Shown: positions 3,066 to 51,828 of the stretch, in pieces
Layout: every line of letters begins with the position of its first letter
How positions within the stretch are numbered: the stretch's first letter is position 1
NCBI RefSeq assembly: GCF_003315135.1
Contig: NZ_QNRK01000020.1
Location: 62,001 to 126,000 of the forward strand
Direction: 5' to 3'
DNA from: Roseiarcus fermentans
GTDB lineage: Bacteria; Pseudomonadota; Alphaproteobacteria; Rhizobiales; Beijerinckiaceae
DNA: 64,000 bases
Program-made: the position numbers and the translations under genes
Notes under the pieces: generated by a model
What the model was told of the DNA's origin: nothing
What the model saw: only the letters and a program-made list of their open reading frames with translations
Database searches by the model: none

Positions 3066-4148
3066 CTACGAGGTCAGACGGGCCTGGGGGACGGTGAGGC
3101 GGATGGCGAGACCCTCGGGCTTCCATGACCGCTCGATATCGCCGCCGAGCTGCTTGTTCACGGCGATCCGCGACAGCACGCCGCCGAATCCTTCCAGCCC
3201 GGTCGGCGGCTCGACTCTCGGTCCGCCGCGCTCGGTCCAAAGCAACGCGACCTGCTCGCCGTCCTCCGAACACGTGACGTCGATGGTCCCGGAGTCGGCC
3301 GACAAGGCGCCGTATTTGGCGGCGTTGGTCGCGAACTCGTGCACGAGCAGCGCGAGGCTCGCGACCGCCGGCCCGGCGACCGGAAGGTCCACGCCGGAAA
3401 TCGAGATCCGCGCGCCGCCGTCCGCGCGGGGGCTGTCGAACGGCGCCACGATCGTTCGCAGGAGCGACTGGAGCGTCGCCGGCTGTCCCGAGGATTCGAC
3501 CATGCCGTGCGCAAAGGTCAGCGAATGCGCGCGCGCGAGCGCGGCCAGGCGCTCGCGCACGGAGTCCGCCAATTCCGCGACCGAATGCGCGGAGCGCGCG
3601 CTCAGCCCCACGATGCTGCTGGACAGCGCGAACAGATTCTTCACCCGATGGCTCATCTCGCGCAGGAGCAACTGCTGACGGTCCCGCGCCTTCGTGAGCT
3701 CGCTGATGTCGCGGGCGATTTTCGAAGCGCCGATGATCCGGCCCCTCCCGTCCCGGATCGGCGAAATGGTCAGGGAAATGTCGATCAGGCTTCCATTCTT
3801 GTGCTGCCGGATCGTTTCGTAATGGCGAATCGGCTCGCCGCGCCGGATCTTGTCGAGGATCGCCGGCTCCTCGTCCTGCCGCTCCTCGGGAATGATGAGC
3901 GAGACCTGGCGTCCGACCGCCTCCGCGGCCGTGAATCCGAACAGACGTTCCGCGCCCCGGTTCCAGCTCAGGATCACGCCGTCCAGGTCCTTGGACAGGA
4001 TCGCGTCGTCGGAGGACTCGACGATCGCCGCGTAATGCAGGGCCTTTCGGATGCCGCGTTCCCGCTTCTTCTTATGCTGGCGGTGAAGTTCATCTCGTCT
4101 GTCCGTCGGACCGGACGCAGGGAGCGTTTCGCGCTCGATGTTGCTCAT
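3066..4148 (-). CDS. PAS-domain HWE/HisKA_2-family sensor histidine kinase
   Basis: The protein is a 360-residue cytoplasmic kinase with no membrane segment. A PAS domain (about residues 36-155) precedes the kinase core. The phosphoacceptor region EMSHRVKNLFALSSS places the histidine near residue 167. The N-box HEFATNAAKYGALS and the motif LWTERGG (a W-x-E signature) mark the HWE/HisKA_2 class. Kinases of this class commonly phosphorylate PhyR, whose gene lies 1 kb away, so this is a good candidate PhyR kinase responding to a cytoplasmic signal. The start at 4148 (MSNIERETL) is preferred over an upstream ATG because a GGAAAG-like RBS precedes it. Confidence 0.88.
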   Translation of the reverse strand: MSNIERETLPASGPTDRRDELHRQHKKKRERGIRKALHYAAIVESSDDAILSKDLDGVILSWNRGAERLFGFTAAEAVGRQVSLIIPEERQDEEPAILDKIRRGEPIRHYETIRQHKNGSLIDISLTISPIRDGRGRIIGASKIARDISELTKARDRQQLLLREMSHRVKNLFALSSSIVGLSARSAHSVAELADSVRERLAALARAHSLTFAHGMVESSGQPATLQSLLRTIVAPFDSPRADGGARISISGVDLPVAGPAVASLALLVHEFATNAAKYGALSADSGTIDVTCSEDGEQVALLWTERGGPRVEPPTGLEGFGGVLSRIAVNKQLGGDIERSWKPEGLAIRLTVPQARLTS

Positions 4149-4685
4149 ACAACAGCTTTCCGGGTGATGATACGAAGGCCGGCGCATCGTATTTGCTGGA
4201 ATCATCGTCGGCCGCACAGTCGTCGCCAAGCCAGGACGTCATGCTCCGGAACGACACAAACAAGCCGGCGCTGGACTGGCCCGACGGCGAGGACCGCCAG
4301 CGTGTCCAAGCGCAGGCAAGCTTGGAGAGAGTCTCGAATCTTGTAAATAGCCTGTCCTGCCGCTCTGTGCGCGGGATCTCGTCGTCCGACCGACAGCCGT
4401 CATCGATTGCGTTGGGAAAATGTCGATTCGATGACCGACGCCACAGACTTGTTCAGTGTTGTGGAGCCGCTTCAGCGTGAAGAATCAGCTTTGCGCCGCG
4501 TCGTGGCGAAAGCGGGACGCGGACGCGAGCCCGTTTGCGCATCGGAAGGCGACCCGGCCTCTTCAAGCAAAAGTGATCGATCTGTTGCAGGCGCCTTGAT
4601 CGACAGGCGGCGCCAGAACGGATCGCCGCGACAGGCTACGGAGACGCGGGCCCGAATTCTCCCCCGATCATGAAAATGGCCGGCC
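4149..4685. other. 537-bp stretch with no supported gene
   Basis: This lies between the kinase start and the end of nepR. I see only short, low-complexity ORFs on both strands, none with a domain or convincing start. The position downstream of nepR, where many relatives carry ecfG, holds nothing resembling a sigma factor. Confidence 0.6.
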
Positions 4686-4895
4686 TCAGGCCTTCGGCCG
4701 TGCCCGATCCCTCGATTCCGCGGGGATTTCCCCCGCCTCGAGCCGCGACAGAAGCGCTTCGAACTGGGCCGGAAGCGGCTCGCGCAGGAGGTCGTCGTAA
4801 TGCGCCCGAAGCGCGCGACCGATGGCGTCGAGGGGCGTCGCATTCGTCGGCGCCTCGACCGACGACGGATGTTTCGAGGCGGTGAGCTTCGTCAT
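4686..4895 (-). CDS. nepR: NepR-type anti-sigma factor
   Basis: This 69-residue protein has the NepR core DAIGRALRAHYDDLLREPLP followed by QFEALLSRLEAGE (about residues 24-57). In the general stress response NepR binds and holds the ECF sigma factor EcfG, and phosphorylated PhyR removes it. ATG 4895 (MTKLTASKHPSS) is preferred over a longer reading because the extension is not family-like. It is divergent from phyR across a 240-bp intergenic region. The usual partner gene ecfG does not follow it here. Confidence 0.9.
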   Translation of the reverse strand: MTKLTASKHPSSVEAPTNATPLDAIGRALRAHYDDLLREPLPAQFEALLSRLEAGEIPAESRDRARPKA

Positions 4896-5135
4896 TCTTT
4901 CGCTCTCGTGTCCGGATAATGGCGGCGGACCGGCGCGTCGGATATAACCGCATTGCCCGTGCGGATCCGACGGTCTGGAACGCATTTAACGGGTCGATCC
5001 GCCCGAATTCAAGTCGCGCTGCTTAAGTATTTTCCACAATTGCGGCCATGGAGTCGAAGGACGACGTGAGGGAAAAACGGAACTCCGACGCGCTCGACCG
5101 CTTCGGGTTCGGCCAACCGGGAATGGAAGGCTCAG

Positions 5136-5924
5136 ATGTCAATCTCGACGGAAATTCGACCCCTGATTCCCTATCTTCGGCGGTTTTCATGCGCGCTCGC
5201 CGGCAATCGTGAGGGCGGAGACGCGCTCGTGGCCGCGACGCTCGGACGCCTGGCCGCAGACCCGCAATCGTTTCGGCGCGATATTCACCCCAGAATGGCG
5301 CTCTTCCGCGCCCTCCTCGACGCCTGGTCCGGCGCCCGGCCGTCGGAGACGGAGGCCGGAAACCAGTCTGCCGTCGATCGCAAGCTCGCCGCGCTTTCCC
5401 CGCAGACGCGGCAGGCGTTCCTGTTGTATGCGGTCGAGGGGTTTTCGGTTGCGGAGGTCGCAGCCATCATGGGATTCGATCGCTCCCGCGTCTCGCGCTT
5501 GCTGGCGCGCGGCGGGGCGGACATCGGCCGAGAGCTGGCCGCGACCGTCATGATCATCGAGGACGAGCCGATCATCGCCATGGATCTTGAAACCATCGTC
5601 GAGGACCTCGGGCACGAAGTGGTCGGAATCGTCAGAACCCGTCGTCAGGCGGTGGCGCTTGCGGCCGAGCGCGAGCCGGAATTGATCGTCGCCGACATCC
5701 AGCTGGCCGACGGCAGCTCCGGCATCGAGGCGGTCAACGAGATCGTCGGCAAGAAGAGCAAACCGGTCGTGTTCGTCACCGCTCATCCGGGCATCTATCT
5801 GAGCGCGATCAAGAACAGACCCGAGCCGGTTTTCCTGCTGTCGAAGCCTTTCAGCGCCGATTCGGTTCGCGCCGCCGTCTGTCAGGCCCTGTTTTTCGAC
5901 CGGAGAGCCCACGCCGCAGCGTGA
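5136..5924 (+). CDS. phyR: general stress response regulator PhyR
   Basis: The 262-residue protein has a sigma-factor-like N-terminal domain (about residues 1-130; LSPQTRQAFLLYAVEGFSV is a sigma-4-like helix-turn-helix) fused to a C-terminal receiver domain (about 137-255). The receiver shows the acidic pair in MIIEDEPI, a phospho-acceptor Asp near residue 187 in IVADIQL, and the conserved FVTAH threonine and SKPF lysine. When phosphorylated, PhyR binds NepR by sigma mimicry and frees EcfG. It is divergent from nepR and close to an HWE kinase. The identification is secure. Confidence 0.96.
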   Translation: MSISTEIRPLIPYLRRFSCALAGNREGGDALVAATLGRLAADPQSFRRDIHPRMALFRALLDAWSGARPSETEAGNQSAVDRKLAALSPQTRQAFLLYAVEGFSVAEVAAIMGFDRSRVSRLLARGGADIGRELAATVMIIEDEPIIAMDLETIVEDLGHEVVGIVRTRRQAVALAAEREPELIVADIQLADGSSGIEAVNEIVGKKSKPVVFVTAHPGIYLSAIKNRPEPVFLLSKPFSADSVRAAVCQALFFDRRAHAAA

Positions 5925-7613: not shown

Positions 7614-7883
7614 ATGGCGCAAACAGAATCCCGGTCCCAGAAGGAAACGGTCGAGCGGGTTATGCATGAGTTCAAGCACGGCGAACTGCGCAGCGGCGGC
7701 GGGTCCACGAAAGTGACGAATCCGAAGCAGGCCGTCGCAATCGCCCTCAGCGAGGCCGGCGCTTCGGACCAACAGTCACCGGAGCGGAACGCGCGCCGCC
7801 TTCGTCGCACGAAGGCGAAGGAGCGGCGGGGCGAGACCGCGCAAGCCGAAACCGAAGGACGGCGTGGCGGCGAGGCCGACTGA
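7614..7883 (+). CDS. DUF6496 domain protein, likely general-stress protein
   Basis: The protein is 89 residues. The N-terminal half (MAQTESRSQKETVERVMHEF then KHGELRSG and TNPKQAVAIALSEAG) matches DUF6496, a family of small cytoplasmic proteins common in Proteobacteria. The C-terminal half is highly basic (RRLRRTKAKERRG) and could bind nucleic acid; that is inference. A longer upstream reading exists but passes through promoter sequence, so ATG 7614 is chosen. An exact EcfG promoter precedes it. Confidence 0.8.
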   Translation: MAQTESRSQKETVERVMHEFKHGELRSGGGSTKVTNPKQAVAIALSEAGASDQQSPERNARRLRRTKAKERRGETAQAETEGRRGGEAD

Positions 7884-8011: not shown

Positions 8012-8392
8012 ATGGACCGGTCGGATCGGAGGCGCTGGCGGGCGATCGGAACGGCGCTCGCGCTTTGCATCGTTCTCTGTCCGCAGACCGGCGTCGCAGT
8101 CCTGGCGCAAGAGGGCGCCGGAAAGTCAGCGGGGCGCACGGGCGCGCCGGGGCAGGGCGAAACGCGCGACGGCTGGTTCTCCGCCGTCGCCGGGCGAGGT
8201 TGCGATGCGACGGGCCTGTGCGTCTGCATCGAGCGGCGCGGCGCGGGCGCCGGCGACTTCGTCTACACCTACGCGCCCGGCGAAGCGACGGAGCTGGAAC
8301 GGGATCGCTCGCCGACGACGGTTCGCGCGACCGGGCTCGCCGACGACGCCTCCAGGCTGGACGACGAGCCGCGCTTCTCGCCCAACAGCTAG
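8012..8392 (+). CDS. small secreted protein of unknown function
   Basis: This 126-residue protein has a signal peptide (about residues 1-33: basic RRRWR start, hydrophobic AIGTALALCIVLC core, cleavage after VLAQ). The mature part contains RGCDATGLCVCIERRG with three cysteines close together, which could form disulfides or bind metal, and is otherwise polar. A GATGAGG-like RBS precedes the ATG and an exact EcfG promoter lies about 90 bp upstream. I recognise no family. The promoter and signal peptide argue that it is real. Confidence 0.6.
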   Translation: MDRSDRRRWRAIGTALALCIVLCPQTGVAVLAQEGAGKSAGRTGAPGQGETRDGWFSAVAGRGCDATGLCVCIERRGAGAGDFVYTYAPGEATELERDRSPTTVRATGLADDASRLDDEPRFSPNS

Positions 8393-39065: not shown

Positions 39066-39525
39066 GAGGGACTCCGTACGGGCGGCTGGAGGCGAAGGGG
39101 GCATGCAGAAACGCGGCGAGCCCCGTCCCGTCCGTGCCGACGACGATCAGCAGGAGGCCCGCGCCGAGCGATAGATTTTTTAGGAAGTCCCACAGAAGCG
39201 TGCGGCCCTTCCCGTCGGGGTCGGAGCAGAAATCGCCCTGCGCCCAGAATTGCTTGTAAAGAATCGCCGTCGCCGCGCAGTAGCCGGCGATGACGAAGGC
39301 GCACGCCCGATCCGCGACGCCGGTGACGACGCCGAGCGTGCAGACCACCTCGACGAACAGGCCGATCAGGATCATCGCGACCGCGATCGGACGCGGCTTG
39401 AACATGCTCTGCGCCTGCTTGACCGCATGATCGAAACCAAAAATCTTGTCGAGCGCGCTGAACGGCAGGAACAACAGCACCAAGCCGTAGCGAACGACGA
39501 GCGCGACGATTGCCGCCGTCGTCAT
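39046..39525 (-). CDS. DoxX-family membrane protein
   Basis: The 159-residue protein has four predicted membrane helices (VVRYGLVLLFLPFSALDKIF; AMILIGLFVEVVCTLGVVT; ACAFVIAGYCAATAILY; LSLGAGLLLIVVG). DoxX proteins are found in quinone-linked or sulfur-oxidising complexes and near redox enzymes. It starts within the GMC gene stop (ATGA). Its position suggests that the GMC oxidoreductase may hand electrons to a membrane partner. Confidence 0.87.
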   Translation of the reverse strand: MTTAAIVALVVRYGLVLLFLPFSALDKIFGFDHAVKQAQSMFKPRPIAVAMILIGLFVEVVCTLGVVTGVADRACAFVIAGYCAATAILYKQFWAQGDFCSDPDGKGRTLLWDFLKNLSLGAGLLLIVVGTDGTGLAAFLHAPFASSRPYGVPHDRSIG

Positions 39526-41084
39526 AGCCGATCCTTGATAATGTCGGCCACGCGCAGCGCGTTGGCGATGATCGTGAGCGTTGGGTTCACCGCGCCGATC
39601 GAAGGGAAGAAGCTTGCGTCGGTGACATAGAGGTTATCGACTTCGTGCGCGCGGCAATCGAGGTCCAGCACCGATCTCGCCGGATCCACACCGAAGCGAC
39701 ACGTGCCGGCCTGATGCGCGGTGCCGGAGAGCGGAATATTTTTGCCGAGATAGAGCGAGCGTTCGAGTAACACGGCCGGCCAGCCGATCTCGGACAACAC
39801 ATCCTTCAACTTGCGCTTCAGGCGCCTGAGGGCCTCCGGATTGGTTTCGGTGAGATCGAGATGAACCTTGCCGTCCTTGTAGTAGATCCGGTTGTCCGGG
39901 CGAGGCAGGTCTTCGGCCTGCAGCCAAAAATCCATCGAGTGGCGGGCGATCTCGCTGAACGGCATGTCGGGCAAGCCTTCGAGCCAGCCGGGCAACGCCT
40001 CGCCCTTGACCTGGTCGGCGTGGCTGGTCGCGCACATCTGGATCAGGCCGAGGGGGAAGTCCCAGTCGTCGCTTCCGAAATAGAAATCGCTGAACGCCAG
40101 CGTCTTCTGAAACACCGTCTCGTTGACGTGACGCATCACCGCCATGACGATGCTCATCTCGTGGCGCATATAGTTGCGTCCGACCTGGTCGGAGCCGTTG
40201 GCAAGGCCATTGGGATGCCGGTCGTTGGCCGAGCGCAACAGGAGCAGCGCGGAGGAAAGCGATCCACATGCAACGACCACCGTGGCGGCTGAATAGATCT
40301 CGTGCTCTCCCCTCCGCTCCACATGAACGGCGTCGACTCGCCGCCCGCTCGGATCTGTCCCGAGCTTCGACACATAGGCGTTCGTCATCAGCGTCACGTT
40401 GTCGTGCTTCGCCAGCATCGGATCGATGCAAATCACCTGCGCGTCCGCCTTGCCGTTCAGAAGACAGGGGAAGCCGTCGAACGCGGTGCACCGGATGCAG
40501 GTGCTGGTCGGTGTCGCAAAACCGTCCTCCTTCTGGTCGAGCAGGATGCCCAGCGGGAGATGGAAGGGCTTCAGACCGATCGCGGTCAGCTTGTCGGACA
40601 GCTCGGCGACCTTGGGTTCATGCTTCACCGCGGGATAGGGATAAGGCGCGTCCGCAGGAGGCTCGGTGGGATCCTCGCCGCGCGCGCCATGGACTCGAAA
40701 CAACGCCTCTGCGGCGTCATAATAGCGGGCGAAGTCACGGTACTTGAGCGGCCAGGCGGGCGAGACGCCCCCGGCATGGACGATCTCGTCGAAATCACGC
40801 TCGCGCAGGCGGAAGAGCGCTGCGCCATACACCTTGGAATTGCCGCCGACGAAGTAATGGAGTTGAGGGCTGAAGGCGCCCCCTTCAGCGTTGGTCCAGG
40901 TCTCGGCGGCTTGATACCTGCCGTCGACAAAGACGGCCTGCGCGCTCCAATTCGCTTCCTCGCGCGGCAGATAGTCCCCGCGTTCGAGGATCAGAATGCG
41001 CTTTCCGGTCGGAGCGAGCGCCTGGGCGAGCGAAGCCCCGCCGGGGCCGCTTCCGATAACGATCACGTCGTAATGCTCGCCCAA
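39522..41084 (-). CDS. GMC-family FAD oxidoreductase
   Basis: The protein of about 520 residues has the N-terminal FAD motif VIVIGSGPGGASLAQALA, HYFVGGNSKVYGAALFRLRE, a Cys-rich patch CIRCTAFDGFPCLLNG, and the C-terminal GTAHQAGTCRFG with NLYVTDASFFPSIGAVNPTL. It oxidises an alcohol, often a sugar or polyol. I place the start at a TTG (41084) because GGAGG lies 5 nt before it and the protein then begins with GEHYDVIVIG; a GTG at 41096 and an ATG at 41222 are in frame. It leads the operon with DoxX, cupin and VOC genes. Confidence 0.9.
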   Translation of the reverse strand: MGEHYDVIVIGSGPGGASLAQALAPTGKRILILERGDYLPREEANWSAQAVFVDGRYQAAETWTNAEGGAFSPQLHYFVGGNSKVYGAALFRLRERDFDEIVHAGGVSPAWPLKYRDFARYYDAAEALFRVHGARGEDPTEPPADAPYPYPAVKHEPKVAELSDKLTAIGLKPFHLPLGILLDQKEDGFATPTSTCIRCTAFDGFPCLLNGKADAQVICIDPMLAKHDNVTLMTNAYVSKLGTDPSGRRVDAVHVERRGEHEIYSAATVVVACGSLSSALLLLRSANDRHPNGLANGSDQVGRNYMRHEMSIVMAVMRHVNETVFQKTLAFSDFYFGSDDWDFPLGLIQMCATSHADQVKGEALPGWLEGLPDMPFSEIARHSMDFWLQAEDLPRPDNRIYYKDGKVHLDLTETNPEALRRLKRKLKDVLSEIGWPAVLLERSLYLGKNIPLSGTAHQAGTCRFGVDPARSVLDLDCRAHEVDNLYVTDASFFPSIGAVNPTLTIIANALRVADIIKDRL

Positions 41085-41185
41085 CTCAACCTCCACACGG
41101 ATCGGTCGACGCTGCTGCTCGATCCTGGTTGAACGGCGCAAGGCCCCGCCTTGTTTCCGCCCGTGGCCGATTTCGCAATCGTCAC

Positions 41186-41210
41186 GGAACCAGGCTCCAA
41201 GCCATTCGTT
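41186..41210 (+). promoter_or_regulatory. sigma-EcfG promoter for the SDR at 41237
   Basis: GGAAC (41186-41190), a 16-nt spacer and CGTT (41207-41210) match the general-stress consensus exactly, 26 bp before ATG 41237. A near-match in the opposite orientation (CGTT at 41134-41131 with a GAAAC-like -35) could serve the divergent GMC operon but has one mismatch. Confidence 0.75.
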
Positions 41211-41236: not shown

Positions 41237-42259
41237 ATGCGGAGAGTGGCGGTGATCACCGGCGCGGGCGCAGGGGTTGGTCGCGCCACCGCTGAAGAAT
41301 TCGCACGGCAGGGCTTTGACGTCGCGCTGCTGTCGCGCGACCTCGCCCGGCTTGACCGAGCGGCCGACGAACTGCGCCGCCACGGGGTGCGAGCGCTGCC
41401 GATCCCCACCGATGTCGCCGAGGCCGCCGCGGTGGAAACCGCGGCCGATCGCACCGAGGCGGAGCTCGGGCCGATCGACGTGTGGGTGAACGTTGCGATG
41501 GCCACGGTCTTCGCCCCCGTGGCCATGTTGACAGCGGAAGAAGTCGAGCGCGGCACCAGGGTGACCTATCTCGGACAGGTGCACGGCATGATGTCTGCGC
41601 TGAAGCGGATGCGCGCGCGCAATCGCGGCACGATCGTCAACGTCGGCTCCGCGCTCGCTTATCGTTCGGTGCCGCTGCAATCGATCTATTGCGGCGCCAA
41701 GGCGGCGATCAGGGGCTTCACCGACAGCCTTCGCAGCGAGATCATCCATGACAAGCTCAACGTGCAGCTGACGATGGTCGATCTGCCGGCGGTCAATACA
41801 CCGCAGTTCGATTGGGCGCTCAACAAGATGGGGCGCAAGGCGAAGCCCGTCGCGCCGATTTTCGAGCCCGAAGTCCCCGCCCGCGCCATCTTTTTCGCCG
41901 CCACGCACAAGCGACGCGACATCTGGGTCGGATGGCCGACGGTCAAGGCGATCCTCGCCAACCGCATCGCCCCCGGCCTGATCGACCGCTATCTCGCCAC
42001 CGCCGGCTATTCCGGCCAGCTCGCCGACGAGCCGACCGCGCCCAATGCTCCCGCGAACCTGTTCGAGCCCGTCCCCGGCGATTATTCGGCCCACGGGCGC
42101 TTCGACGCCCAGTCGCGCGAGCGAAGCTGGGAGATGTTCACGGATCGCCACAAGACGGCGGTGGTCACGGCCGTGGTCGTGCTGGCGGTCGCACTGGCGA
42201 TGCGTCAGGTCGCGAAACGCTTTGAGATCAAAGCGCCTCGCCCCGCGATGCCTGGGTGA
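41237..42259 (+). CDS. SDR-family oxidoreductase with C-terminal membrane segment
   Basis: The 340-residue SDR has cofactor motif TGAGAGVGRATA and active site YCGAK. The C-terminal 100 residues carry an extension ending in a hydrophobic segment (AVVTAVVVLAVALAMRQVA) that could anchor it to the membrane. AGGAG precedes ATG 41237. An exact EcfG promoter sits just upstream, so it is likely stress-induced. The domain layout resembles SDRs found beside GMC oxidoreductases. Substrate unknown. Confidence 0.88.
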   Translation: MRRVAVITGAGAGVGRATAEEFARQGFDVALLSRDLARLDRAADELRRHGVRALPIPTDVAEAAAVETAADRTEAELGPIDVWVNVAMATVFAPVAMLTAEEVERGTRVTYLGQVHGMMSALKRMRARNRGTIVNVGSALAYRSVPLQSIYCGAKAAIRGFTDSLRSEIIHDKLNVQLTMVDLPAVNTPQFDWALNKMGRKAKPVAPIFEPEVPARAIFFAATHKRRDIWVGWPTVKAILANRIAPGLIDRYLATAGYSGQLADEPTAPNAPANLFEPVPGDYSAHGRFDAQSRERSWEMFTDRHKTAVVTAVVVLAVALAMRQVAKRFEIKAPRPAMPG

Positions 42260-42282: not shown

Positions 42283-42487
42283 CATGTCGCAGAATTTGTC
42301 TGGAAGCGCCTCAATGAATGGGGCTTCTCCCGGGTGTACGGATATCCCGGCGATGGAGTCGGCGGATTGCACGTCGCGCTCGAAAAGGCGAAGGACTTCA
42401 TGGATTATATTATGTCCAAGTTCGCCACGCAGAGATGGCTGCGTTCATCGCCTCGGCGCATGCGAAGTTCACCGGACAGGTTGGGCT
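42283..42487 (+). pseudogene. frameshifted N-terminal fragment of a thiamine-pyrophosphate enzyme (PoxB-like)
   Basis: The reading VAEFVWKRLNEWGFSRVYGY followed by PGDGVGGLHVALEKAKDFMDY matches the N-terminus of pyruvate-oxidase-type TPP enzymes. After about 42412 the match shifts frame (VQVRHAEMAAFIASAHAKF) and then ends. Only about 70 of the usual 550-600 residues remain. Confidence 0.82.
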
Positions 42488-42489
42488 CA

Positions 42490-42658
42490 GCAAATACTGG
42501 CGGCGCTGGTCCGACCCGCGCTTCATCCTCATTTGTGGGTGTGTGACGGATCGGTCTTCCCGACCGTCGGGGGCGTCAATCCGTCGCTGACGATCCAGGC
42601 GATCGCGATCCGCACCGCCGAACGGATCGGCAAGCTCGCGGCCGCTGGCGAGCTTTGA
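42490..42658 (+). pseudogene. C-terminal fragment of a second GMC oxidoreductase
   Basis: The reading VCDGSVFPTVGGVNPSLTIQ followed by AIAIRTAERIGKLA is the conserved C-terminal end of GMC oxidoreductases (the N-P-S/T-L block). It is joined directly to the TPP-enzyme fragment. It is not a copy of the intact GMC gene at 39522, whose equivalent region reads DASFFPSIGAVNPTL. Confidence 0.82.
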
Positions 42659-42662
42659 GCCG

Positions 42663-43100
42663 CTACATCATCCTCTCTCGCAGGTTGAACAGGACGACCA
42701 GCGTTCCGGAGACCATCAGGATCACGATCAGCGTCGAGAACAGAATGAGCTGAAGATCAGCGCGCGCCGATTTGCGAAGGCTGATGTGCAGGAAGAAACG
42801 GAAGTGCACCCCCATCTGGACGAGCGCTAGCCCGAGCACGATGGCGAGCGAAGTCTCCGCATCGAAGCTGGGCCACCGCACCGTGGCGAAGGCGGCGCCG
42901 GTGAGCGCGAGGGCTAGGCCGTATCCGATCGCATACGAACGAATCTCGTCACGCTTGCTCTCGGTCGGCTTGGCAATCGGATCGATCGCTGGTGACGGCC
43001 GCCATAGGATCGCGAGAACCACCGCCGCGAGCAGAGCAAGCCAATAGAGGACCGGAGACGAGCCGGGCCTGTCAGGTTTAGCGTCGTTCGAACCGCTCAC
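42663..43100 (-). CDS. cyoD: cytochrome bo3 ubiquinol oxidase subunit IV
   Basis: The 145-residue protein has three membrane helices and the subunit-IV core EIRSYAIGYGLALALTGAAFA followed by LALVQMGVHFRFFLH. An N-terminal extension with one extra hydrophobic segment (VLYWLALLAAVVLAILW) makes it longer than typical CyoD (about 110). GTG 43100 overlaps the cyoC stop. The role is assembly and stability of the oxidase. Confidence 0.87.
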   Translation of the reverse strand: MSGSNDAKPDRPGSSPVLYWLALLAAVVLAILWRPSPAIDPIAKPTESKRDEIRSYAIGYGLALALTGAAFATVRWPSFDAETSLAIVLGLALVQMGVHFRFFLHISLRKSARADLQLILFSTLIVILMVSGTLVVLFNLRERMM

Positions 43101-43723
43101 CGGATCAGTCCCTGGAGATAGACGACCGAAAAGATCGCGATCCAAACAATATCGAGAAAATGCCAGAACAGGCCAAGCCGCAAGATGTTGATCTTGACGC
43201 GCGCGTCGAGCCCGAACGTTATCGCCTGGATCATCATCAGGACGATCCAGATGCATCCAAAGAAGACATGAAGCCCGTGCAGCGGCGCCAGGGCGAAGAA
43301 AGACGAAAGATACCCGCTGCGGGTCGGATAGGCGCCGTCGCCGAACATCGTCGCGAAGTCGTGCAGCTCCATGCCGACAAAGGCGAGCCCGAGCACCAGC
43401 GTCACGCCCATCCAGCCGAGCAATTGCTGCCGGGGCGCTCCGTGCTTCATGGCGACCGAGGCCATGCCGAAGGTGAAGCTGCTGGTCAGCAGCGTCAGGG
43501 TTTCGAGGAAGACGGGAAGGATCCTGTACTCGCTCGCCGGAGTCGGACCGCCGACAGTCGCCGGCAACATGACGCCATAGGTCGCAAAGAGCAGCGCGAA
43601 GATCACGGCGTCGCTCATCAGGAACAGCCAGAAGCCGAACACCGCGCTCAGCGCCTCCTCGTGCGTCAACGCATCGGTCCGGCCGAGATTGAGGCCGACG
43701 TGCCTGAGTTCGTTCACGCTCAT
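43097..43723 (-). CDS. cyoC: cytochrome bo3 ubiquinol oxidase subunit III
   Basis: The 208-residue protein has five membrane helices of the heme-copper oxidase subunit III family: FGFWLFLMSDAVIFALLFA, LLTSSFTFGMASVAMKHG, FVGMELHDFATMFG and LHGLHVFFGCIWIVLMM. It overlaps cyoB and cyoD by 4 bp each. Confidence 0.93.
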   Translation of the reverse strand: MSVNELRHVGLNLGRTDALTHEEALSAVFGFWLFLMSDAVIFALLFATYGVMLPATVGGPTPASEYRILPVFLETLTLLTSSFTFGMASVAMKHGAPRQQLLGWMGVTLVLGLAFVGMELHDFATMFGDGAYPTRSGYLSSFFALAPLHGLHVFFGCIWIVLMMIQAITFGLDARVKINILRLGLFWHFLDIVWIAIFSVVYLQGLIR

Positions 43724-45804
43724 CCGGAAACCTCGGCCAGGCCTCGGTTGGCGGGCGTCGTCTCGACAGCCCGCGGGATCGGCGTGATCTCGGCCTCGGC
43801 GCGCAGCCAGCGCCGTTCCGTGCGTTCGATCTCGGCGGCGGGGATGATCCTGCGGACGTCGCGGGCAAAACTGCGAGCGATGACCGTGGCGCCGATCGCC
43901 AGCACGCCGATGACTGCGAGCCACCACATGTGCCAAACGAGGCCGAACGCCGTCGCCGCGCCAACCACGCCGATCACCGGACCGGTCTTGCTGTTTTTGG
44001 GAAGCTCGATATCGTCATAAGACGCGGGCGGCGGATAGGGATTCCCCTTGCGCTTGGCTTCGTAGAACGGGTCACGGCCGTGGACGCGCGGAAGCGCCGC
44101 GTAATTGTATTCCGGCGGCGGCGCGGAGATCGACCACTCGAGCCCGCGCCCGTCCCAGGGATCTCCCGCAAACACGCGGTTGGCGTCGCGGTCGCGAATG
44201 CTGACCCACAGCTGGACGAAGAGGAAGGCGAGCGCGCAGAACAGCACCAGGGCGCCTGCGCCCGCGACATAGAGCCAGGGTCGGAAGGCGGGCTCGAACA
44301 CTTCCTGCGTGCGCCGCGCCATCCCGGCCGCTCCAAGCACGTAGAGCGGCATGAAGGCGAGGTAGAAGCCGGCCACCCAGCAGCCGAAGGAGATGCGGCC
44401 CCATTTCTCGTCGAGCCGGAAGCCGAACGCCTTGGGGAACCAGTAATGATAGCCTGCGAGCATGGCGTAAAGCAGCCCCGGAATTAGCATGTTGTGGAAA
44501 TGCGCAACCAGAAACAGGGTGTTGTGAACCAAGTAGTCGAGCGGCGGAATGGCGAGGATTATCCCGGTCAGGCCACCCAGCACGAAGGTCATCATGAAGG
44601 CCAGCGAATAAAGCATGGGGACGGAAAACCGCACTTCGCCACGAAACATGGTCCAGATCCAATCATAGATCTTGACGCCCGTGGGCACGCCGATGGCCAT
44701 CGTGGCGATGCCAAACGCAGCGTTGATGTTGGCGTTTTGACCCATTGTGAAGAAATGGTGGACCCACACCGTGAACGACAGCAGGGCGATCGCCGCCGTT
44801 GCAAGAACGAGCGAGGTGTAGCCGTAGAGCTCCTTGGACGAGAAGGTTGCGACAACTTCCGAATAGACGCCGAAGGCGGGCAGGATCAGGATATAGACCT
44901 CCGGGTGACCGAACAGCCAAAACAGATTGGCGTAGTTCATCATGTTGCCGCCGAGGTCATTGGTGAAGAAGTGGAAGCCCAGATAGCGGTCGAGCGCCAA
45001 CAGCGCAGTCGCGACCGTCAGCGGCGGCATGGCGAAGATCATCAGGATGCTGGTGCACAGCGCCGTCCATACGAACAGCGGCATCCGCATCAGGTGCATG
45101 CCGTCACAGCGCATTTTGTAGATGGTGACGGCGAAATTGATCCCCGTCAGCGTCGATCCTACTGAGCCCAGCGTCACCGCCCAGATCCAGTAGTCGGGTC
45201 CCACGCCGGGGCTGAAGGCGAGCTCGGTATAAGGCGGGTAGCCGCTCCAGCCTCCGGTCGAGAACTCGCCGATGACGAGAGACACCATCATCAACCCGGC
45301 GGCCCCGCCGGTCAGCCAGAGGCTGATCGAATTGAGCAGCGGGAAGGCGACGTCGCGGCTGCCGATCTGAAGGGGCATGACATAGTTGATGAGGCCGACG
45401 AGGAACGGCATCGCCATGAAGAAGATCATGATGCTGCCGTGCGTGCTGAACAATTGCGCGAAGTGGTTGGGCGCAAGGAAGCCGGGACTCCCGACTGCCG
45501 CCGCCTGCTGCATCCGCATCAGCACGGCCTCGATCAGCGCCCGCGTGAGCATCACGAAGGCGAGGACAATGTACATGATGCCGATTTTCTTGTGGTCGAG
45601 GCTCGTGAGCCACTCGGACCAAAGAGAGCGCCACTTGCCAAGCCTCGTGATCAGCGCGACGACCAAGACAGCGCCGAAGATGACGATCGAGGCCGCCCCG
45701 GCGCCGATGATCTCGCTGGCGGTGGGGTTTTCCCAGGCGCGAACGAACGGCAGCGAATGCCAGACGAAGCGGCCCAGGACTGCCGGCCAGACGCCCTCAG
45801 TCAT
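43720..45804 (-). CDS. cyoB: cytochrome bo3 ubiquinol oxidase subunit I
   Basis: The 694-residue protein has about fifteen membrane helices. The heme and CuB centre is marked by FGHPEVYILILPAFG, with its cross-linked His-Tyr, plus VWVHHFFTMG with the His pair and VAHFHNMLIPG near heme o3/b ligands. It reduces oxygen to water with quinol electrons and pumps protons. The family match to bo3-type (quinol) oxidase is clear; an aa3-type quinol oxidase would look similar. It is second in the cyoABCD cluster. Confidence 0.95.
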   Translation of the reverse strand: MTEGVWPAVLGRFVWHSLPFVRAWENPTASEIIGAGAASIVIFGAVLVVALITRLGKWRSLWSEWLTSLDHKKIGIMYIVLAFVMLTRALIEAVLMRMQQAAAVGSPGFLAPNHFAQLFSTHGSIMIFFMAMPFLVGLINYVMPLQIGSRDVAFPLLNSISLWLTGGAAGLMMVSLVIGEFSTGGWSGYPPYTELAFSPGVGPDYWIWAVTLGSVGSTLTGINFAVTIYKMRCDGMHLMRMPLFVWTALCTSILMIFAMPPLTVATALLALDRYLGFHFFTNDLGGNMMNYANLFWLFGHPEVYILILPAFGVYSEVVATFSSKELYGYTSLVLATAAIALLSFTVWVHHFFTMGQNANINAAFGIATMAIGVPTGVKIYDWIWTMFRGEVRFSVPMLYSLAFMMTFVLGGLTGIILAIPPLDYLVHNTLFLVAHFHNMLIPGLLYAMLAGYHYWFPKAFGFRLDEKWGRISFGCWVAGFYLAFMPLYVLGAAGMARRTQEVFEPAFRPWLYVAGAGALVLFCALAFLFVQLWVSIRDRDANRVFAGDPWDGRGLEWSISAPPPEYNYAALPRVHGRDPFYEAKRKGNPYPPPASYDDIELPKNSKTGPVIGVVGAATAFGLVWHMWWLAVIGVLAIGATVIARSFARDVRRIIPAAEIERTERRWLRAEAEITPIPRAVETTPANRGLAEVSG

Positions 45805-46655
45805 GATCGAGGCTCCGTGGACTGGACGAGGATACGCTGGAAGAGATCCTGGGGAATTGACGAGAAGACGATCGGCTGGGGCGGCGACGATTGTCTGAAA
45901 AGCGCAGGATAGGCGGCGGCGTCGAGCGGATGGCCTGACGCGCGCGCCTGCTCCACCCAGCGATCATAGTCGGCGGGCGGAAGCGCGACGACGTTGAATT
46001 TCTCGTTCTGGAAGCCAGCTCCATTGAACTGGGTGTTTTCGCCGCGATAGACGCCCGGCCGCGAAGCCGCGAGGTTGAGGTGTGTCGTCATCCCCGCCAT
46101 CGCGTAGATCTGGCCTGAGAGTTGAGGGATCAGCAATGATTGCATAACCGTGCCGCTGGTCAGGCTGATATGGACGGGCCGATTGACCGGGATGACCAGC
46201 AGGTTGACGGCCGCGAAGCGCTGATCCGGCTCGATGAACAGCCATTTCCAGTCGAGCCCCACCGCCTGAACCTCGAGCGGGGCCTGAGCGGATACGAGCG
46301 GGCGATAGGGATCGAGCGCGTGGGTATAAGACCAAACCAAAAAGGCGAGGCCGATCACGATCGCGGTCGGCGGGATCCAGATGAAGCCCTCGAGCGTCCA
46401 CGAAAAGCCCCAGTTCGGCCTGAACGCGTTATGCTTGTTTGATAGCCGATAATGCCAGGCGATGAGGGGGGTCAACAGCAGCACCGGCCCGGCGACGAAG
46501 ATCAGCACGACGGCTACGATCGAGTAGAGGCGCCACTGACTCGCGGCGATCGGACCGGCGTGGTTCATCACGCCGAGCTTCACCGCATTGCATCCGCTGA
46601 GCAGGAAGGCGGACAGCAACGCAAAACAAGCAGACTTGCCGCGCGACGCATTCAT
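45801..46655 (-). CDS. cyoA: cytochrome bo3 ubiquinol oxidase subunit II (lipoprotein)
   Basis: The 284-residue protein has a lipoprotein signal ending in LLSGC, two N-terminal membrane helices (YSIVAVVLIFVAGPVLLL; FIWIPPTAIVIGLAFLVW) and a periplasmic cupredoxin domain. The CuA ligands of cytochrome c oxidases are absent, as in quinol oxidases. It starts within the stop of the GH15 gene (ATGA) and overlaps cyoB by 4 bp. Confidence 0.94.
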   Translation of the reverse strand: MNASRGKSACFALLSAFLLSGCNAVKLGVMNHAGPIAASQWRLYSIVAVVLIFVAGPVLLLTPLIAWHYRLSNKHNAFRPNWGFSWTLEGFIWIPPTAIVIGLAFLVWSYTHALDPYRPLVSAQAPLEVQAVGLDWKWLFIEPDQRFAAVNLLVIPVNRPVHISLTSGTVMQSLLIPQLSGQIYAMAGMTTHLNLAASRPGVYRGENTQFNGAGFQNEKFNVVALPPADYDRWVEQARASGHPLDAAAYPALFRQSSPPQPIVFSSIPQDLFQRILVQSTEPRS

Positions 46656-48427
46656 CCGCCGGCTCGCTGGATCACGGGGCCAGACAGGAACAAAGCGGTG
46701 TTGATCACGCCGAGATGGGTCAACGTCTGCGGAATATTGCCGATCAGGCTGCGGCTGCCGACGTCATACTCTTCGCTGAGAAGGCCCACATCGTTGGAGA
46801 CCCCGATCACGCGTTCCAGCAGCGTCGCCGCGTCGTTGTCGCGGCGCTGCATCTTGTAACAGTCCGCCAGCCAGCAGGTGCAGGCGAGAAAGGCGCCCTC
46901 GTTGGGGCCATGCGGTTTTGGCGGTTTGCGTCGTACCAGTCCCCCTTCCATCAGCTCCCGCTCGATCGCCGCGATCGTCCTGGCTATGCGCGGATCGTCA
47001 ACGGGAAGGAAGCCGACGAGCGGCAACAGCAACAGCGACGCGTCCAGGGTGTCGCCGCCATAGCCCTGGACGAAGTGGCCGAGAACGCTGTTGTAGCCGC
47101 GCTCGCACACGGTCCGATGGATCACTTCGCTCAGCGCCTTCAGTCTGGCGATCAACGCGCGATCGGCCCGATCGTTGTCGGCATGCGCTTCAAGGTAGCG
47201 GGTGACGCCCACCCAGGCCATCGCCTGCGAATAGGTGTAGCATTGAAGATCGCCACGGCTTTCCCAGATGTCGGCGCTGGGCTTGTCCCACACCTTCTCG
47301 AGATGCTGGACGATCGCGGTCTCGACTTCGACGACGCGCGGGGTGCGCTCGATCCCGGCCTTGGCCAGGACGGCGAAACTGTCCATCAACTCGCCAAAGA
47401 CGTCGAGTTGCGTCTGGCCTGACGCGGCGTTGCCGACGCGGACCGGCTCGGCGCCTTGATAGCCGGGCAGCCCATCCAGCTCGCGCTCGGGTGGGAGGCG
47501 GCCGCCGTCGATCCGGTAGACGATCTGCATCTCTGCGGGCTGGCCTCCGAGCGCCCGCAGGATCCAGTCGCGCCAGCGCGTCGCCTCCTCGTGGAAGCCG
47601 GCGTCGAGGAGCGCGGTAAGCGTGAAAGTGGAATCGCGCAGCCAGCAATAGCGATAATCCCAGTTCGCCGATCCGCCAGGAATTTCCGGCAATCCGAGCG
47701 TCGCGGCGGCGACGATCCCGCCGCCTTCCCGATCGATCAGCGTGCGCAGCGTGATCAGCGAGCGGCGGATAGCCCCATCCCACCGGCTTTTCGCCTCGTA
47801 CCGGCCGATCCAGCCCGTCCACGCCTTCTCTGTTGCGTCGACCAGGGAATCGATCCTCAACGGCGGGGGCATCGCCGCCGTTGAGGGCGAATGACTGAGG
47901 ACGAAGGCGATCTTCGAGCCTCTGGCCATCACGAAGCGGGCGCCGGCGCCGTCGCCGTCCATCGCGAGCTCGACCGGACAGTCGAGGACGACGCGATCCG
48001 GGCCGGCCTCGAAAATAAGCCCGCGTTCGTGGCGTTCGCTCCAGGGCGCCATCTGACCGTAGCCAAAGCGCAGCCTCAGCGACATCGCCATCTGCACCTC
48101 GCCTTCCAGCCCCTCCACGATGCGGATGATCGCCGACGCGCCCTCGCGCCAGGGCATAAGGTCGGTCACCCGCACGCGGCCGGTATCGGTGAAGTGCTCG
48201 GTCTCAAGGATGGCTGTGTCGTCGCGGTAGCGGCGGACGGTCTGCGAAACGTAGCCCGCCGGCGAAATGACCCAAGAGCCGTGACGTTCGTCCCCCAGCA
48301 GCGCGGCGAGACAAGCGTCGCTGTCGAAGCGGGGCCAGCATAAAAAATCTATCGATCCGGACCTGGCGACAAGCGCACAACTGCGCCCGTCCCCGATGAT
48401 GGCATGGTCCTGGATCGTGGATGTCAT
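46652..48427 (-). CDS. glycoside hydrolase family 15 protein, first gene of the cyo operon
   Basis: The 591-residue GH15 enzyme of the glucoamylase/trehalase type has an N-terminal beta domain (IIGDGRSCALVARSGSIDFL) and an (alpha/alpha)6 catalytic domain with GSANWDYRYCWLRDSTFTLT, IWESRGDLQCYTYSQAMAW and LLSEEYDVGSRSLIGNIPQ. The acid/base pair is expected in WESRG and SEEYD. There is no signal peptide, so it acts on cytoplasmic glucans or trehalose. Its stop overlaps the cyoA start, so it is cotranslated with the terminal oxidase. An EcfG promoter lies 198 bp upstream. Confidence 0.92.
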   Translation of the reverse strand: MTSTIQDHAIIGDGRSCALVARSGSIDFLCWPRFDSDACLAALLGDERHGSWVISPAGYVSQTVRRYRDDTAILETEHFTDTGRVRVTDLMPWREGASAIIRIVEGLEGEVQMAMSLRLRFGYGQMAPWSERHERGLIFEAGPDRVVLDCPVELAMDGDGAGARFVMARGSKIAFVLSHSPSTAAMPPPLRIDSLVDATEKAWTGWIGRYEAKSRWDGAIRRSLITLRTLIDREGGGIVAAATLGLPEIPGGSANWDYRYCWLRDSTFTLTALLDAGFHEEATRWRDWILRALGGQPAEMQIVYRIDGGRLPPERELDGLPGYQGAEPVRVGNAASGQTQLDVFGELMDSFAVLAKAGIERTPRVVEVETAIVQHLEKVWDKPSADIWESRGDLQCYTYSQAMAWVGVTRYLEAHADNDRADRALIARLKALSEVIHRTVCERGYNSVLGHFVQGYGGDTLDASLLLLPLVGFLPVDDPRIARTIAAIERELMEGGLVRRKPPKPHGPNEGAFLACTCWLADCYKMQRRDNDAATLLERVIGVSNDVGLLSEEYDVGSRSLIGNIPQTLTHLGVINTALFLSGPVIQRAGG

Positions 48428-48743
48428 CGGAACTGCTCCTTACAGCTCGAGGCGACCCGCTTCCATAATCCTGACATTCCGCGCCGGGGCGGCGATCGAG
48501 CCTCGGCAGTTCCGACGAAACCTCCGTGAAAGCAGACGCCATCCCAACGAGCGCCAGCTTTGACAAAATACGATGAGCGTAACGCCGCCCGAACCTGGCC
48601 GTGGCTGTTATCGGGGCAATCACAAACGCGGGCGGCCTATCGGAGTTCCTTCGGACGGGTGGAATTCGATCGCGCCGACCGAGCGCCCTGTGGCGAAGGG
48701 GAACGCGCCCGGGATCACGGGGTTTTGCCTGACGGAGGCTGCG
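48428..48743. other. 316-bp divergent intergenic region
   Basis: This contains the EcfG-type promoter at 48625-48649 for the leftward GH15-cyo operon, and a near-match (GGAAC 48700, 16 nt, GGTT) 20 bp before the rightward SMP-30 gene. A TTGACA at about 48559 has no good -10 box. I see no gene. Confidence 0.6.
48625..48649 (-). promoter_or_regulatory. sigma-EcfG promoter upstream of GH15-cyoABCD
   Basis: On the minus strand GGAAC (48649-48645) and CGTT (48628-48625) are exactly 16 nt apart, a full match to the general-stress promoter, pointing to the GH15 gene with a leader of about 190 nt. The long leader is unusual and could hold other control elements. Confidence 0.7.
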
Positions 48744-49625
48744 ATGGCGATCGAGACGGTGCTCAACTTCCGTGCGGCGATTGGCGAATCCCCAACCTGG
48801 GTCGAAGACGAGCGCGCGCTTTATTGGATCGACGTCAAAGCGCCGGCGCTTCACCGCTATTGTCCGGACGACGAATCGACCCGCAGTTGGTCGATGACGA
48901 GCGATATCGGAGGCTTCGCGCTGACCGGCGACGGCGGCGCTGTGGTGGCCCTCCGGCACGGGCTATTTCGCCTCGACCTCGATAGCGGCGCGCTGCGGCT
49001 GCTTACGCCCCCGCCATTCGACCCCTCGCTTTTTCGCTTCAATGAAGGCGCCTGCGATACCAACGGCCGCTTTTGGATCGGCGTGATGTTCGATCCGCTG
49101 AAGGGATCGGCGTCCGAACAGCCGGGACGGCTCCACAGTTTCACTTTTGCGGAAGGCCTTCGTGAGGAACCGGACGCGGCCGAGTTACACAATGGCATGG
49201 CCTGGAGCGGCGACGGCAAGACGTTCTTCCTGTCGCACAGCCATTCCGGCGAGATCTTCACTTTCGATTACAAGGAGAACGGCGCGCTCTCGAACCGCCG
49301 GGTTTTCGCGGCTGTGCCCGCCGGACTCGGCATCCCCGACGGCGCCGCGATCGACATGGACGGCGGCTATTGGTCGGCGCTCCATGGCGGCGGCAAGCTT
49401 CGCCGCTTTCACCCCGACGGCTCCCCCGACCGCGACGTCGACCTACCCGTCAGCCAGCCAACAATGCCCGCCTTCGCGGGCGAGGACCTCGCCACGCTCT
49501 ACGTCACCAGCGCGTCGGATCGCATGAGCGAGGAGGCGAAGACAAGGGAGCCGCACGCAGGAGCGCTGTTGCGCCTCGACTCGGGGGGGAGCCGCGGAGT
49601 CGCGCGGTCCTTTCTGGTTCGCTGA
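48744..49625 (+). CDS. SMP-30/gluconolactonase-family protein
   Basis: The 293-residue beta-propeller has GESPTWVEDERALYWIDVKA, FNEGACDTNGRFWIGVMFD, LHNGMAWSGDGKTFFLSHSH and IPDGAAIDMDGGYWSALHGG, the family's metal-binding and active-site loops. GGAGG precedes ATG 48744. It is divergent from the GH15-cyo operon. Lactonase activity on aldonolactones is likely but not proven. It differs from the 325-residue relative at 36837. Confidence 0.92.
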   Translation: MAIETVLNFRAAIGESPTWVEDERALYWIDVKAPALHRYCPDDESTRSWSMTSDIGGFALTGDGGAVVALRHGLFRLDLDSGALRLLTPPPFDPSLFRFNEGACDTNGRFWIGVMFDPLKGSASEQPGRLHSFTFAEGLREEPDAAELHNGMAWSGDGKTFFLSHSHSGEIFTFDYKENGALSNRRVFAAVPAGLGIPDGAAIDMDGGYWSALHGGGKLRRFHPDGSPDRDVDLPVSQPTMPAFAGEDLATLYVTSASDRMSEEAKTREPHAGALLRLDSGGSRGVARSFLVR

Positions 49626-49647: not shown

Positions 49648-51828
49648 TCAGGAAGCCGAGACCACGAGATCCTGACGATCCGCTGTAATCGCAATGCTTC
49701 TCAGCTCGACCGCATCGTGTTCGCCCTTCAGCACCTTGTAAAGCGTGTCGTTCCCGTCTCGCCAGAAGCGGATGTCAAAGCGCTTCCGCCCGAGCCGCAG
49801 ATCGATCAACGTCACATCGGGCAACCAGTCCGGAAGAGCGGGGTCGATGTACAGCTTGCCACGCGGAGCATCCTGCTGCAGTCCCAGCATCGCCTGCAAC
49901 AGCATGAACGGCGCTCCGGCAGCCCAGGCCTGCGGCACATTGGCGCCGATATACTGCACAGGAAAGCTCGTGGGATCGCGCTGTAGTCCCGCATAAAGTT
50001 CAGGGAGCTGACTCAAAACGAAATGGCTCGCCGCGTCGCAGACGTCGCGCGCCACCGCCGCCGCTTCGGCAGCGAAACCATAGCGTCGCATGCCGAGCGC
50101 GATGAGGGAATTGTCGTGAGGCCAAACCGCCCCGGTCTGGTAATTGTAGGGGTTGAATGAGGAATGGTCGGCTGACAGCGTGCGGATGCCCCAGCCGCTC
50201 CACATATCCTTGCTCATCAAGCGTTTCACCACGGCGCCGGCGCGCTCCGGCGCAACAATGCCGGACCATAGGCATTGCCCGACGTTGGACGTCACCGAGA
50301 GCACTTTTTTCTTATCGCCGTCCAACGCGTAGGCATAGAAGCCTGACTTGTCGTCCCAGAAGACGTCGTTGAACTTTTTGAACAGCGCGCCGGCCTTGTT
50401 GCGCAAAGCGGTTGCGCGCCGCTTGTCGCCCAGGTGGTCGTAGATTTCGGCCATGCGCCGCCAGGCGTCATACACATAGCCCTGCACCTCGCACAGCGCC
50501 TTTGGCCCATGCACCAGAGCGCCGTCACGATGCATCACCGCATCCCCTGAATCTTTCCAAGCCATGTTCTCCAACCCGGCCGACGAGCGCGTTTGGTATT
50601 CCTGAAACCCGTCGCCGTCGCGGTCGCCATATGTGTCGATCCAGGTCAGGCAGGCTTCGGCAGTGGACAAATGCTGTTCGATGAGGGCGTTGTCGCCGGT
50701 GGCGCGCCACGCCGCGTGCAGCGTCACCAGATAGAGCGGCGTCGCGTCGGCCGAGCCGTAGTAGGGGGTGTGAGGGATCAGCTTGAAATGCGCCAGCTCC
50801 CCATAGCGCAGCTCGTGCAGGATCTTGCCGGGTTCGGCGTCGCGGTAGTCGTCGCGCTCCGTCGCTTGAAGTCGCCCCAGGACCGCCAACGTGCCGGCGG
50901 CAAATTCCGGATAGACGATCATCGTCTGCATCGAGACAACCAGCGTATCGCGGCCGAACAGCGCCACGAACCACGGCAGCCCGGCGGCGGGCACGAAAAC
51001 CATGTGGTCCGAACCCTCGAGGGGCAATCGCAGGGAAGCCATGTCCTGCACCCCTTGATCATAGCAGCGATCGAACTCCTCATTGCTGCTTCGCATCTTC
51101 AGCACTTCGCGCCGCCACGCGGCCATCTTGCTGGCGCCGCCCGACGTCGCACTGGAATCGGTGCATTCCCGCGGCGCGAGGACGCGCTGCGCGCCATCCA
51201 CCAAATCGTAGATCAGGCAGCGATGCCAGCTCTGCCCAGGCTTCAGCGCGATGTCGAAACTTAGCCTCCCGTTCGCGCTTACCGCTGGCTCGCCGTCGCG
51301 AGTCGCGATGTGGACGATCACCCCGCGGCAGAAGTCTTTGTTATGATAGGTCAGGCGCAGCGTCTGCCGTCCCGCGGACCACAATGTGGTGATGCGGCCG
51401 CGCCGCACGACGCGATTGCTCTTCACTTCGAAGATGTCGGCAAAGTCGGCGCGCATTGCGATTTCCAGGTTGAAACGCACCGTTTTCAAGCTGTAGTTGG
51501 TGACGTCGATGTCCTCGTGCATTCCACCTTCAATATGGCGGCCGACAACTAGACCGATCGTGCGCGGGGCGATCGGGCCGTCTTCAGTGACGATAGCGCG
51601 GTTGGTGAGGAATATTCGCGCGGCTTGATAGGCGATGGCGCCGCCGTTCAGGAGATCCCACGGTTCGCCATTGGCGTAGATCGACCAAGCACTCATCACC
51701 CGGGTGTCGCGGAAGTACAGCCCGCGGACGCTGGGCGAGTTCACCTGCCCGTCTGGCTCCGTCACAAGCACCGTCTGGCCCTGGTGGATCGCGATCTGCG
51801 CTGGGCCGACATGAACCTTGAACGTCAT
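49648..51828 (-). CDS. amylo-alpha-1,6-glucosidase/glycogen-debranching-type protein
   Basis: The 726-residue protein has an N-terminal GDE-like beta domain (about residues 1-230, VNSPSVRGLYFRDTRVMSAW) and a C-terminal (alpha/alpha)6 glucosidase domain with FVALFGRDTLVVSMQTMI, GLENMAWKDSGDAVMHRDG and NYQTGAVWPHDNSLIALGM. It probably trims branched or limit-dextrin alpha-glucans, though some relatives act on other glycosides. GGAG lies 8 nt before ATG 51828. A near-consensus stress promoter (one mismatch) at 51923-51947 lies upstream. Confidence 0.9.
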   Translation of the reverse strand: MTFKVHVGPAQIAIHQGQTVLVTEPDGQVNSPSVRGLYFRDTRVMSAWSIYANGEPWDLLNGGAIAYQAARIFLTNRAIVTEDGPIAPRTIGLVVGRHIEGGMHEDIDVTNYSLKTVRFNLEIAMRADFADIFEVKSNRVVRRGRITTLWSAGRQTLRLTYHNKDFCRGVIVHIATRDGEPAVSANGRLSFDIALKPGQSWHRCLIYDLVDGAQRVLAPRECTDSSATSGGASKMAAWRREVLKMRSSNEEFDRCYDQGVQDMASLRLPLEGSDHMVFVPAAGLPWFVALFGRDTLVVSMQTMIVYPEFAAGTLAVLGRLQATERDDYRDAEPGKILHELRYGELAHFKLIPHTPYYGSADATPLYLVTLHAAWRATGDNALIEQHLSTAEACLTWIDTYGDRDGDGFQEYQTRSSAGLENMAWKDSGDAVMHRDGALVHGPKALCEVQGYVYDAWRRMAEIYDHLGDKRRATALRNKAGALFKKFNDVFWDDKSGFYAYALDGDKKKVLSVTSNVGQCLWSGIVAPERAGAVVKRLMSKDMWSGWGIRTLSADHSSFNPYNYQTGAVWPHDNSLIALGMRRYGFAAEAAAVARDVCDAASHFVLSQLPELYAGLQRDPTSFPVQYIGANVPQAWAAGAPFMLLQAMLGLQQDAPRGKLYIDPALPDWLPDVTLIDLRLGRKRFDIRFWRDGNDTLYKVLKGEHDAVELRSIAITADRQDLVVSAS

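Follow-up and report, generated by a model that had tools for sequence, protein, structure and literature searches.

A GH15-quinol oxidase operon behind an EcfG-type promoter motif in Roseiarcus fermentans, apparently one variant of a floating module of alphaproteobacteria

In Roseiarcus fermentans we identified a gene for a glycoside hydrolase of family GH15 that leads directly into cyoABCD-like genes for a terminal oxidase, behind an exact match to the promoter consensus of the general stress response (GSR) sigma factor EcfG. This is a GSR-type operon of unusual content and part of a conserved module. The explanation that we consider best, and reasonably likely as a whole, is a five-gene GH15-cyoABCD operon that would be driven by EcfG and belong to a floating module. 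The features of the window, by which we mean the whole stretch of 64,000 nucleotides analysed (contig NZ_QNRK01000020.1, positions 62,001 to 126,000), are collected in Table 1.

Table 1. Features of the window around the GH15-cyoABCD operon and of its general stress response cluster
Feature	Position	Strand	Remark
PAS-HWE kinase	3066-4148	-	
nepR	4686-4895	-	
phyR	5136-5924	+	
GMC flavo-dehydrogenase	39522..41096	-	closest PDB entries: glucose dehydrogenase (6a2u), fructose dehydrogenase
Strict EcfG-type motif	41186..41210	+	27 nt before SDR
SDR, module short-chain dehydrogenase	41237..42259	+	82% identical to GH15-adjacent SDR of locus L182
Scrambled remnant	42287..42658	+	PoxB-like N-terminal pieces and GMC C-terminus, next to cyoD
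cyoD-like subunit IV	42663..43100	-	GTG start
cyoC-like subunit III	43097..43723	-	
cyoB-like subunit I	43720..45804	-	694 aa
cyoA-like subunit II	45801..46655	-	lipobox cysteine, without CuA cysteine ligands
GH15 glycoside hydrolase with TREH_N domain	46652..48427	-	591 aa; cyo-linked GH15 clade member
GH15 leader	48428..48624	-	about 190 nt; RBS AAGGAG directly 5' of ATG
-10 element CGTT	48625..48628	-	exact match, spacer 16
-35 element GGAAC, EcfG-type (general stress) promoter	48645..48649	-	exact match
Motif GGAACTCCGATAGGCCGCCCGCGTT, GGAAC-N16-CGTT	48649..48625	-	exact match
SGL (SMP-30/gluconolactonase-like) gene	48744..49625	+	divergent from GH15; GGAGG before ATG

The five genes are co-directional, stand in an order that recurs in other genomes and are joined by four overlaps of 4 bp, as the earlier note had described for the stop codon of GH15 and for each junction after it. 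These lie at GH15/cyoA (46652-46655, GH15 ending at 46652 and cyoA starting at 46655), cyoA/cyoB (45801-45804), cyoB/cyoC (43720-43723), and cyoC/cyoD (43097-43100), and they leave no space for terminators between the genes. On this geometry, a single transcript running from GH15 through cyoD is very probable. The GH15 start could hardly be extended upstream, since the open frame comprises only 595 aa. Within the leader, one terminator-like stem (48590-48575) is weak and at chance level, and the Rfam scan found no match there; taken together, the tRNA and Rfam scans returned no matches.

The earlier note had an exact GGAAC-N16-CGTT aimed at GH15, and this is what we found: the motif lies on the minus strand, in the 316 bp that separate GH15 from the divergent SGL gene, with 198 nt between its 3' end and the ATG of GH15 (gene positions here are those of a simple codon-usage gene caller), and transcription is predicted to start near 48618. 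The same sequence is the published EcfG motif of Rhizobium etli (PMC3892343) and Sphingopyxis granuli (PMC7083833). The distance exceeds the 27-89 nt of the window's other motif sites and falls within the range listed for EcfG targets of Sphingomonas melonis, whose strong matches include sites at 154 and 270 nt (PMC6599016).

A short motif may also arise by chance, in which case the operon would use another promoter in the leader or upstream, perhaps redox-controlled like those of other cyo operons. The genome contains 150 strict matches compared to 92 for a reversed control pattern, nearly two thirds as many, so that one isolated strict match is weak evidence; judging by these counts, perhaps about four in ten strict matches in this genome would be genuine. 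The length of the leader also speaks for a chance match. Position and strand argue against it, as all five strict motifs in the window are intergenic and lie 27-198 nt 5' of a same-strand gene, while 5.7% of random sites fall directly upstream of a gene. The window holds seven GGAAC/CGTT matches with spacers of 15-18 against 2.31 expected, a count reached in 1 of 100 shuffles. Genome-wide, in a sample of 30 of the 150 strict matches, five (17%) were directly upstream of a gene. Moreover, no sigma-70-like site was found in 46500-48800, which again tells against a different promoter.

EcfG, NepR, and PhyR are all encoded in the genome. The nepR/phyR/HWE kinase cluster of the window (3066-5924) has no ecfG beside it; on contig 57 (locus L190), a second nepR is followed by ecfG behind two strict motifs, a textbook autoregulated arrangement that serves as this genome's positive control for the consensus. 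Known EcfG-dependent carbohydrate genes include those for glycosidases and the glycogen debranching enzyme GlgX, as well as trehalose genes (PMC8092242, PMC6599016). Elsewhere in the window, three small genes (2515-2955, 7614-7883, and 8012-8392) stand 31-89 nt behind strict motifs at 3010 (-), 7528 (+), and 7899 (+), and are likely further stress genes. A third GH15 of the genome, more distantly related, is on contig 21 (locus L003), where a strict motif at 1064 lies 419 nt 5' of it.

The pairing of GH15 with cyo recurs in several other alphaproteobacteria, so the earlier note's own ground for abandoning it, a linkage confined to this strain, is ruled out by the Methylobacterium, Jiella, Aureimonas, and Stakelama loci and by related genomes. 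Among the 80 CyoB loci nearest to that of the window in named genomes, GH15 precedes cyoA in those of Jiella sonneratiae, Aureimonas flava, and Stakelama pacifica; in Methylobacterium sp. J-077 it is found further 5' in a same-strand cyo cluster. A second route, in which a cyo-linked GH15 served as anchor across 346 genomes of the anchor's family, recovered the order SDR-GH15-cyoA in five genomes (Jiella included), and GH15-SDR-cyoA and cyo-GH15-SDR in one genome each. In the window's family, one genome carries GMC-SDR-GH15-X-cyoABCD (G303) and another cyoABCD-SDR-GH15 (G087), and GH15 adjoins cyoA in a sphingomonad (G1132). A genome of the same genus (G005) retains only a C-terminal GH15 remnant, with an internal TAG and the overlap preserved, before cyoA (80% identical); cyoA and cyoB continue from it and the contig ends within cyoB, the sequenced part of cyo being intact. 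A decayed GH15 beside a cyo that is intact as far as sequenced indicates that the two are separable. The GH15s of the nearest 60 genomes had seemed unlinked to cyo because they belong mostly to another GH15 clade, and anchoring on CyoB, CyoA, and a cyo-linked GH15 corrected this impression. Searching the whole class with CyoA gave, under a strict cut-off, two weak matches only, and a plasmid search with GH15 gave matches only below 60% identity.

In two quick maximum-likelihood trees, for which SH-aLRT was the only support measure, the cyo-linked GH15s, including that of the window, group together in a single clade (support 100 and 98), with one gene of one genome (G023) as the clade's sole exception to cyo linkage; the Stakelama GH15 sits on a long branch outside it. 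Mapped on the tree, the cyo-linkage label requires 3 changes compared to about 12 in shuffles, a contrast inflated by related rows. Since several loci were retrieved through cyo itself, the fairest count is that of the GH15-anchored search, in which six of six newly found clade members were cyo-linked and no GH15 from outside the clade lay in a cyo operon.

Strict motifs also recur at related operons. Around GH15s of the window's subfamily, seven were upstream on the same strand, one upstream on the opposite strand, one downstream, and one within the gene. The motif heads a ten-gene operon in Stakelama, two Methylobacterium-type GMC-cyo operons, the window's SDR, and the genome's second SDR-GH15 pair; the two Methylobacterium-type sites agree in how far both elements stand from the ATG and differ in their spacers. 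In the window's family, six of about nine module operon heads carry the motif, a binomial probability of about 1e-13 under the genome-wide rate, good for order of magnitude only, since the count of heads was manual and some heads depend on one another. Conservation of the site at related operons is mixed: the strict motif is present in Stakelama and the two Methylobacterium-type module operons and absent from Aurantimonadaceae-type loci of the same gene order (Jiella, Aureimonas, and four related loci with SDR-GH15-cyo), Jiella having GGAAC-N17-AGTT about 128 nt before SDR. These sister loci favor a chance match, and recurrence at module operon heads in other genera, together with the enrichment 5' of GH15, counts against one. 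Weighing both sides, we regard a chance origin as improbable and EcfG-driven transcription from the motif before GH15 as quite probable.

Ordinary cyo operons, by comparison, are unsupported as general EcfG targets: in the 800 bp upstream of ordinary cyoA genes, a same-strand motif was present in 3 of 131 regions, two of them betaproteobacterial. In three loci of one genus (L158, L159, and L167, from G195, G231, and G291), strict motifs lie about 600-630 nt 5' of an ordinary cyoA on the opposite strand and probably serve the divergent neighbor.

The genes that recur around GH15-cyo are SDR, a GMC dehydrogenase, a PoxB-like TPP enzyme, gluconate 2-dehydrogenase subunit 3 (Gad3), and c13, a module protein without a Pfam match. 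All of them are assembled in Stakelama as ten same-strand genes, PoxB-c13-Gad3-GMC-SDR-GH15-cyoABCD, with the strict motif 49 nt before PoxB. In R. fermentans itself, a second module on contig 49 (locus L188, 14000-33000; 5878-16673) comprises a strict motif and SDR-GH15, then GMC, Gad3, c13, and PoxB on the opposite strand, without cyo. The window's GMC shares 28% identity with that of the Stakelama module and belongs to a different subfamily, and the remnant next to cyoD, whose GMC part of 34 aa is 91% identical to module GMCs, reads as a pseudogene, a decayed piece of the module. SGL-like genes are also found in loci L038, L182, and L185. By gene content, GH15-cyoABCD appears as one variant of a module that floats among alphaproteobacteria and consists of SDR, GH15, GMC, PoxB, Gad3, and cyo.

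The earlier note's assignment of the oxidase to the quinol type agrees with its domains and residues. Pfam identifies COX2, COX1, COX3, and COX4_pro in the products of cyoA-D, and a Cyo model is the best NCBIfam match for each of the four subunits, all of them below the equivalog cut-off (bits against cut-off 238/266, 923/1020, 201/224, and 74/81 for CyoA, B, C, and D), for which reason we name them cyo-like, as a divergent sister clade. Apart from the lipobox cysteine and one near the N-terminus, CyoA has no cysteines, and the CuA cysteines are therefore absent. CyoB retains R71, H98, and Q101 of the residues that we take to form the quinol site of E. coli CyoB (R71, D75, H98, and Q101), with D75 replaced by E in a two-sequence alignment. 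Lacking CuA ligands and keeping three of four quinol-site residues, the enzyme is, as predicted from its sequence, a divergent quinol oxidase of the cyo type. Contig 37 carries a further cyo operon of the ordinary kind, with no EcfG-type motif 5' of its cyoA.

The substrate of the GH15 enzyme is less clear-cut. Glyco_hydro_15 scores 200.7 bits against a Pfam cut-off of 22, TREH_N is above its Pfam cut-off as well, and glutamates E389 and E552, presumably at the expected catalytic-motif positions, are invariant. Inspection by eye showed no obvious signal peptide. The AlphaFold model has a mean pLDDT of 61, with a weak catalytic region. Rather than a trehalase or reserve hydrolase, the enzyme may act on another glucoside, e.g. 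an isomaltose-type or glucosylated metabolite. Its closest relatives of known structure in profile comparison, an isomaltose glucohydrolase and (barely) a glucoamylase, are in keeping with that alternative, as is the score of the trehalase models in NCBIfam, 329 of 820 bits and thus far below a cut-off set by equivalog models that are archaeal only. Those same trehalase models are nevertheless its best NCBIfam matches and, with the TREH_N domain, point the other way; we consider the alternative rather unlikely. GSR bacteria also produce trehalose, a protectant, under stress (PMC8092242), and since it is made in the same response, a trehalase in the regulon would seem self-defeating unless it acts in recovery or on another glucan. 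Beyond the SGL gene, at 49648-51828 on the GH15 strand, lies a gene for a glycogen-debranching-like enzyme (GDE_N_bis, MGH1-like) without a strict motif.

Under the EcfG-driven reading, stress would cause PhyR to sequester NepR and thereby free EcfG, which would produce one GH15-cyoABCD message whose overlaps favor coupled translation. Its products would be a cytosolic alpha-glucosidase or trehalase-type hydrolase and a second, divergent cyo-type oxidase beside the ordinary one. Most likely, the GMC and PoxB-like dehydrogenases of the module would pass electrons to quinone, Cyo would re-oxidize the quinol so that a proton gradient is kept without complex I or bc1, and GH15 would supply cytosolic glucose. 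That the product of GH15 ends in quinol oxidation is a link we propose only tentatively. In its full form, which we think rather unlikely, this would be a dedicated EcfG-switched chain in which stored alpha-glucan or trehalose is broken down to glucose by GH15, the oxidation of sugar and pyruvate by GMC and PoxB-like enzymes yields quinol, and the second Cyo burns that quinol, maintaining the gradient in cells that no longer grow or whose main chain is damaged.

Alternatively, GH15, SDR, GMC, and cyo may be independent stress genes that travel together through their dependence on one sigma factor, the product of GH15 not feeding the oxidase. Module order and membership are highly variable, GH15s from outside the clade have their own motif and no cyo (L006, L013, and L233), cyo occurs without GH15 (L177, L178, L180, and L181), and GH15 has decayed to a remnant in G005. 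Because the parts separate so freely, shared regulation without metabolic coupling is about as likely as the full pathway; it would not explain as readily why one specific GH15 clade is linked to cyo, nor the recurrence in the same clusters of dehydrogenases for sugar and pyruvate, which could connect GH15 to cyo, and we place it somewhat short of an even chance.

The alphaproteobacterial general stress response is known mainly for protective and regulatory genes. If its promoter does control a conserved module with a second terminal oxidase and enzymes that release and oxidize sugars, this response would also rewire energy supply, and the recurrence of the pairing suggests that alphaproteobacteria maintain a respiratory kit for stress. 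This raises the question of which oxidase respires in stressed, non-growing cells of the Methylobacterium or Sphingomonas type, and whether losing the oxidase of the module costs survival. In the open-access literature we found no description of a GH15-cyo operon or of EcfG control of cyo with GH15, in line with the earlier note, to which the pairing was not known as an established system; a search of this scope is weak evidence of novelty.

Several known systems offer points of comparison. With the EcfG (ECF15) regulon, the locus shares the exact promoter consensus and the PhyR-NepR-EcfG core regulators, while the literature searched gave no description of an EcfG-dependent operon in which GH15 leads the genes of a terminal quinol oxidase. 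The hydrolase resembles GH15 trehalases and glucoamylases in its domains and invariant glutamates, and differs from them in belonging to a separate clade tied to cyo. The oxidase is like E. coli cytochrome bo3 CyoABCD (best PDB match 1fft) in its four subunits, their order, the lack of CuA ligands, and most quinol-site residues, and unlike it in its sub-cut-off scores, the exchange at D75, the leading GH15, and no cyoE noticed beside the operon. Quinone-linked pyruvate oxidases are stress-regulated in other bacteria, poxB of E. coli under RpoS and ydaP of B. subtilis under sigma-B. The module, with its PoxB-like gene, resembles these in combining a quinone-reducing peripheral enzyme with putative stress control; in contrast to them, the window retains only a remnant of PoxB, and a quinol oxidase lies within the same cluster.
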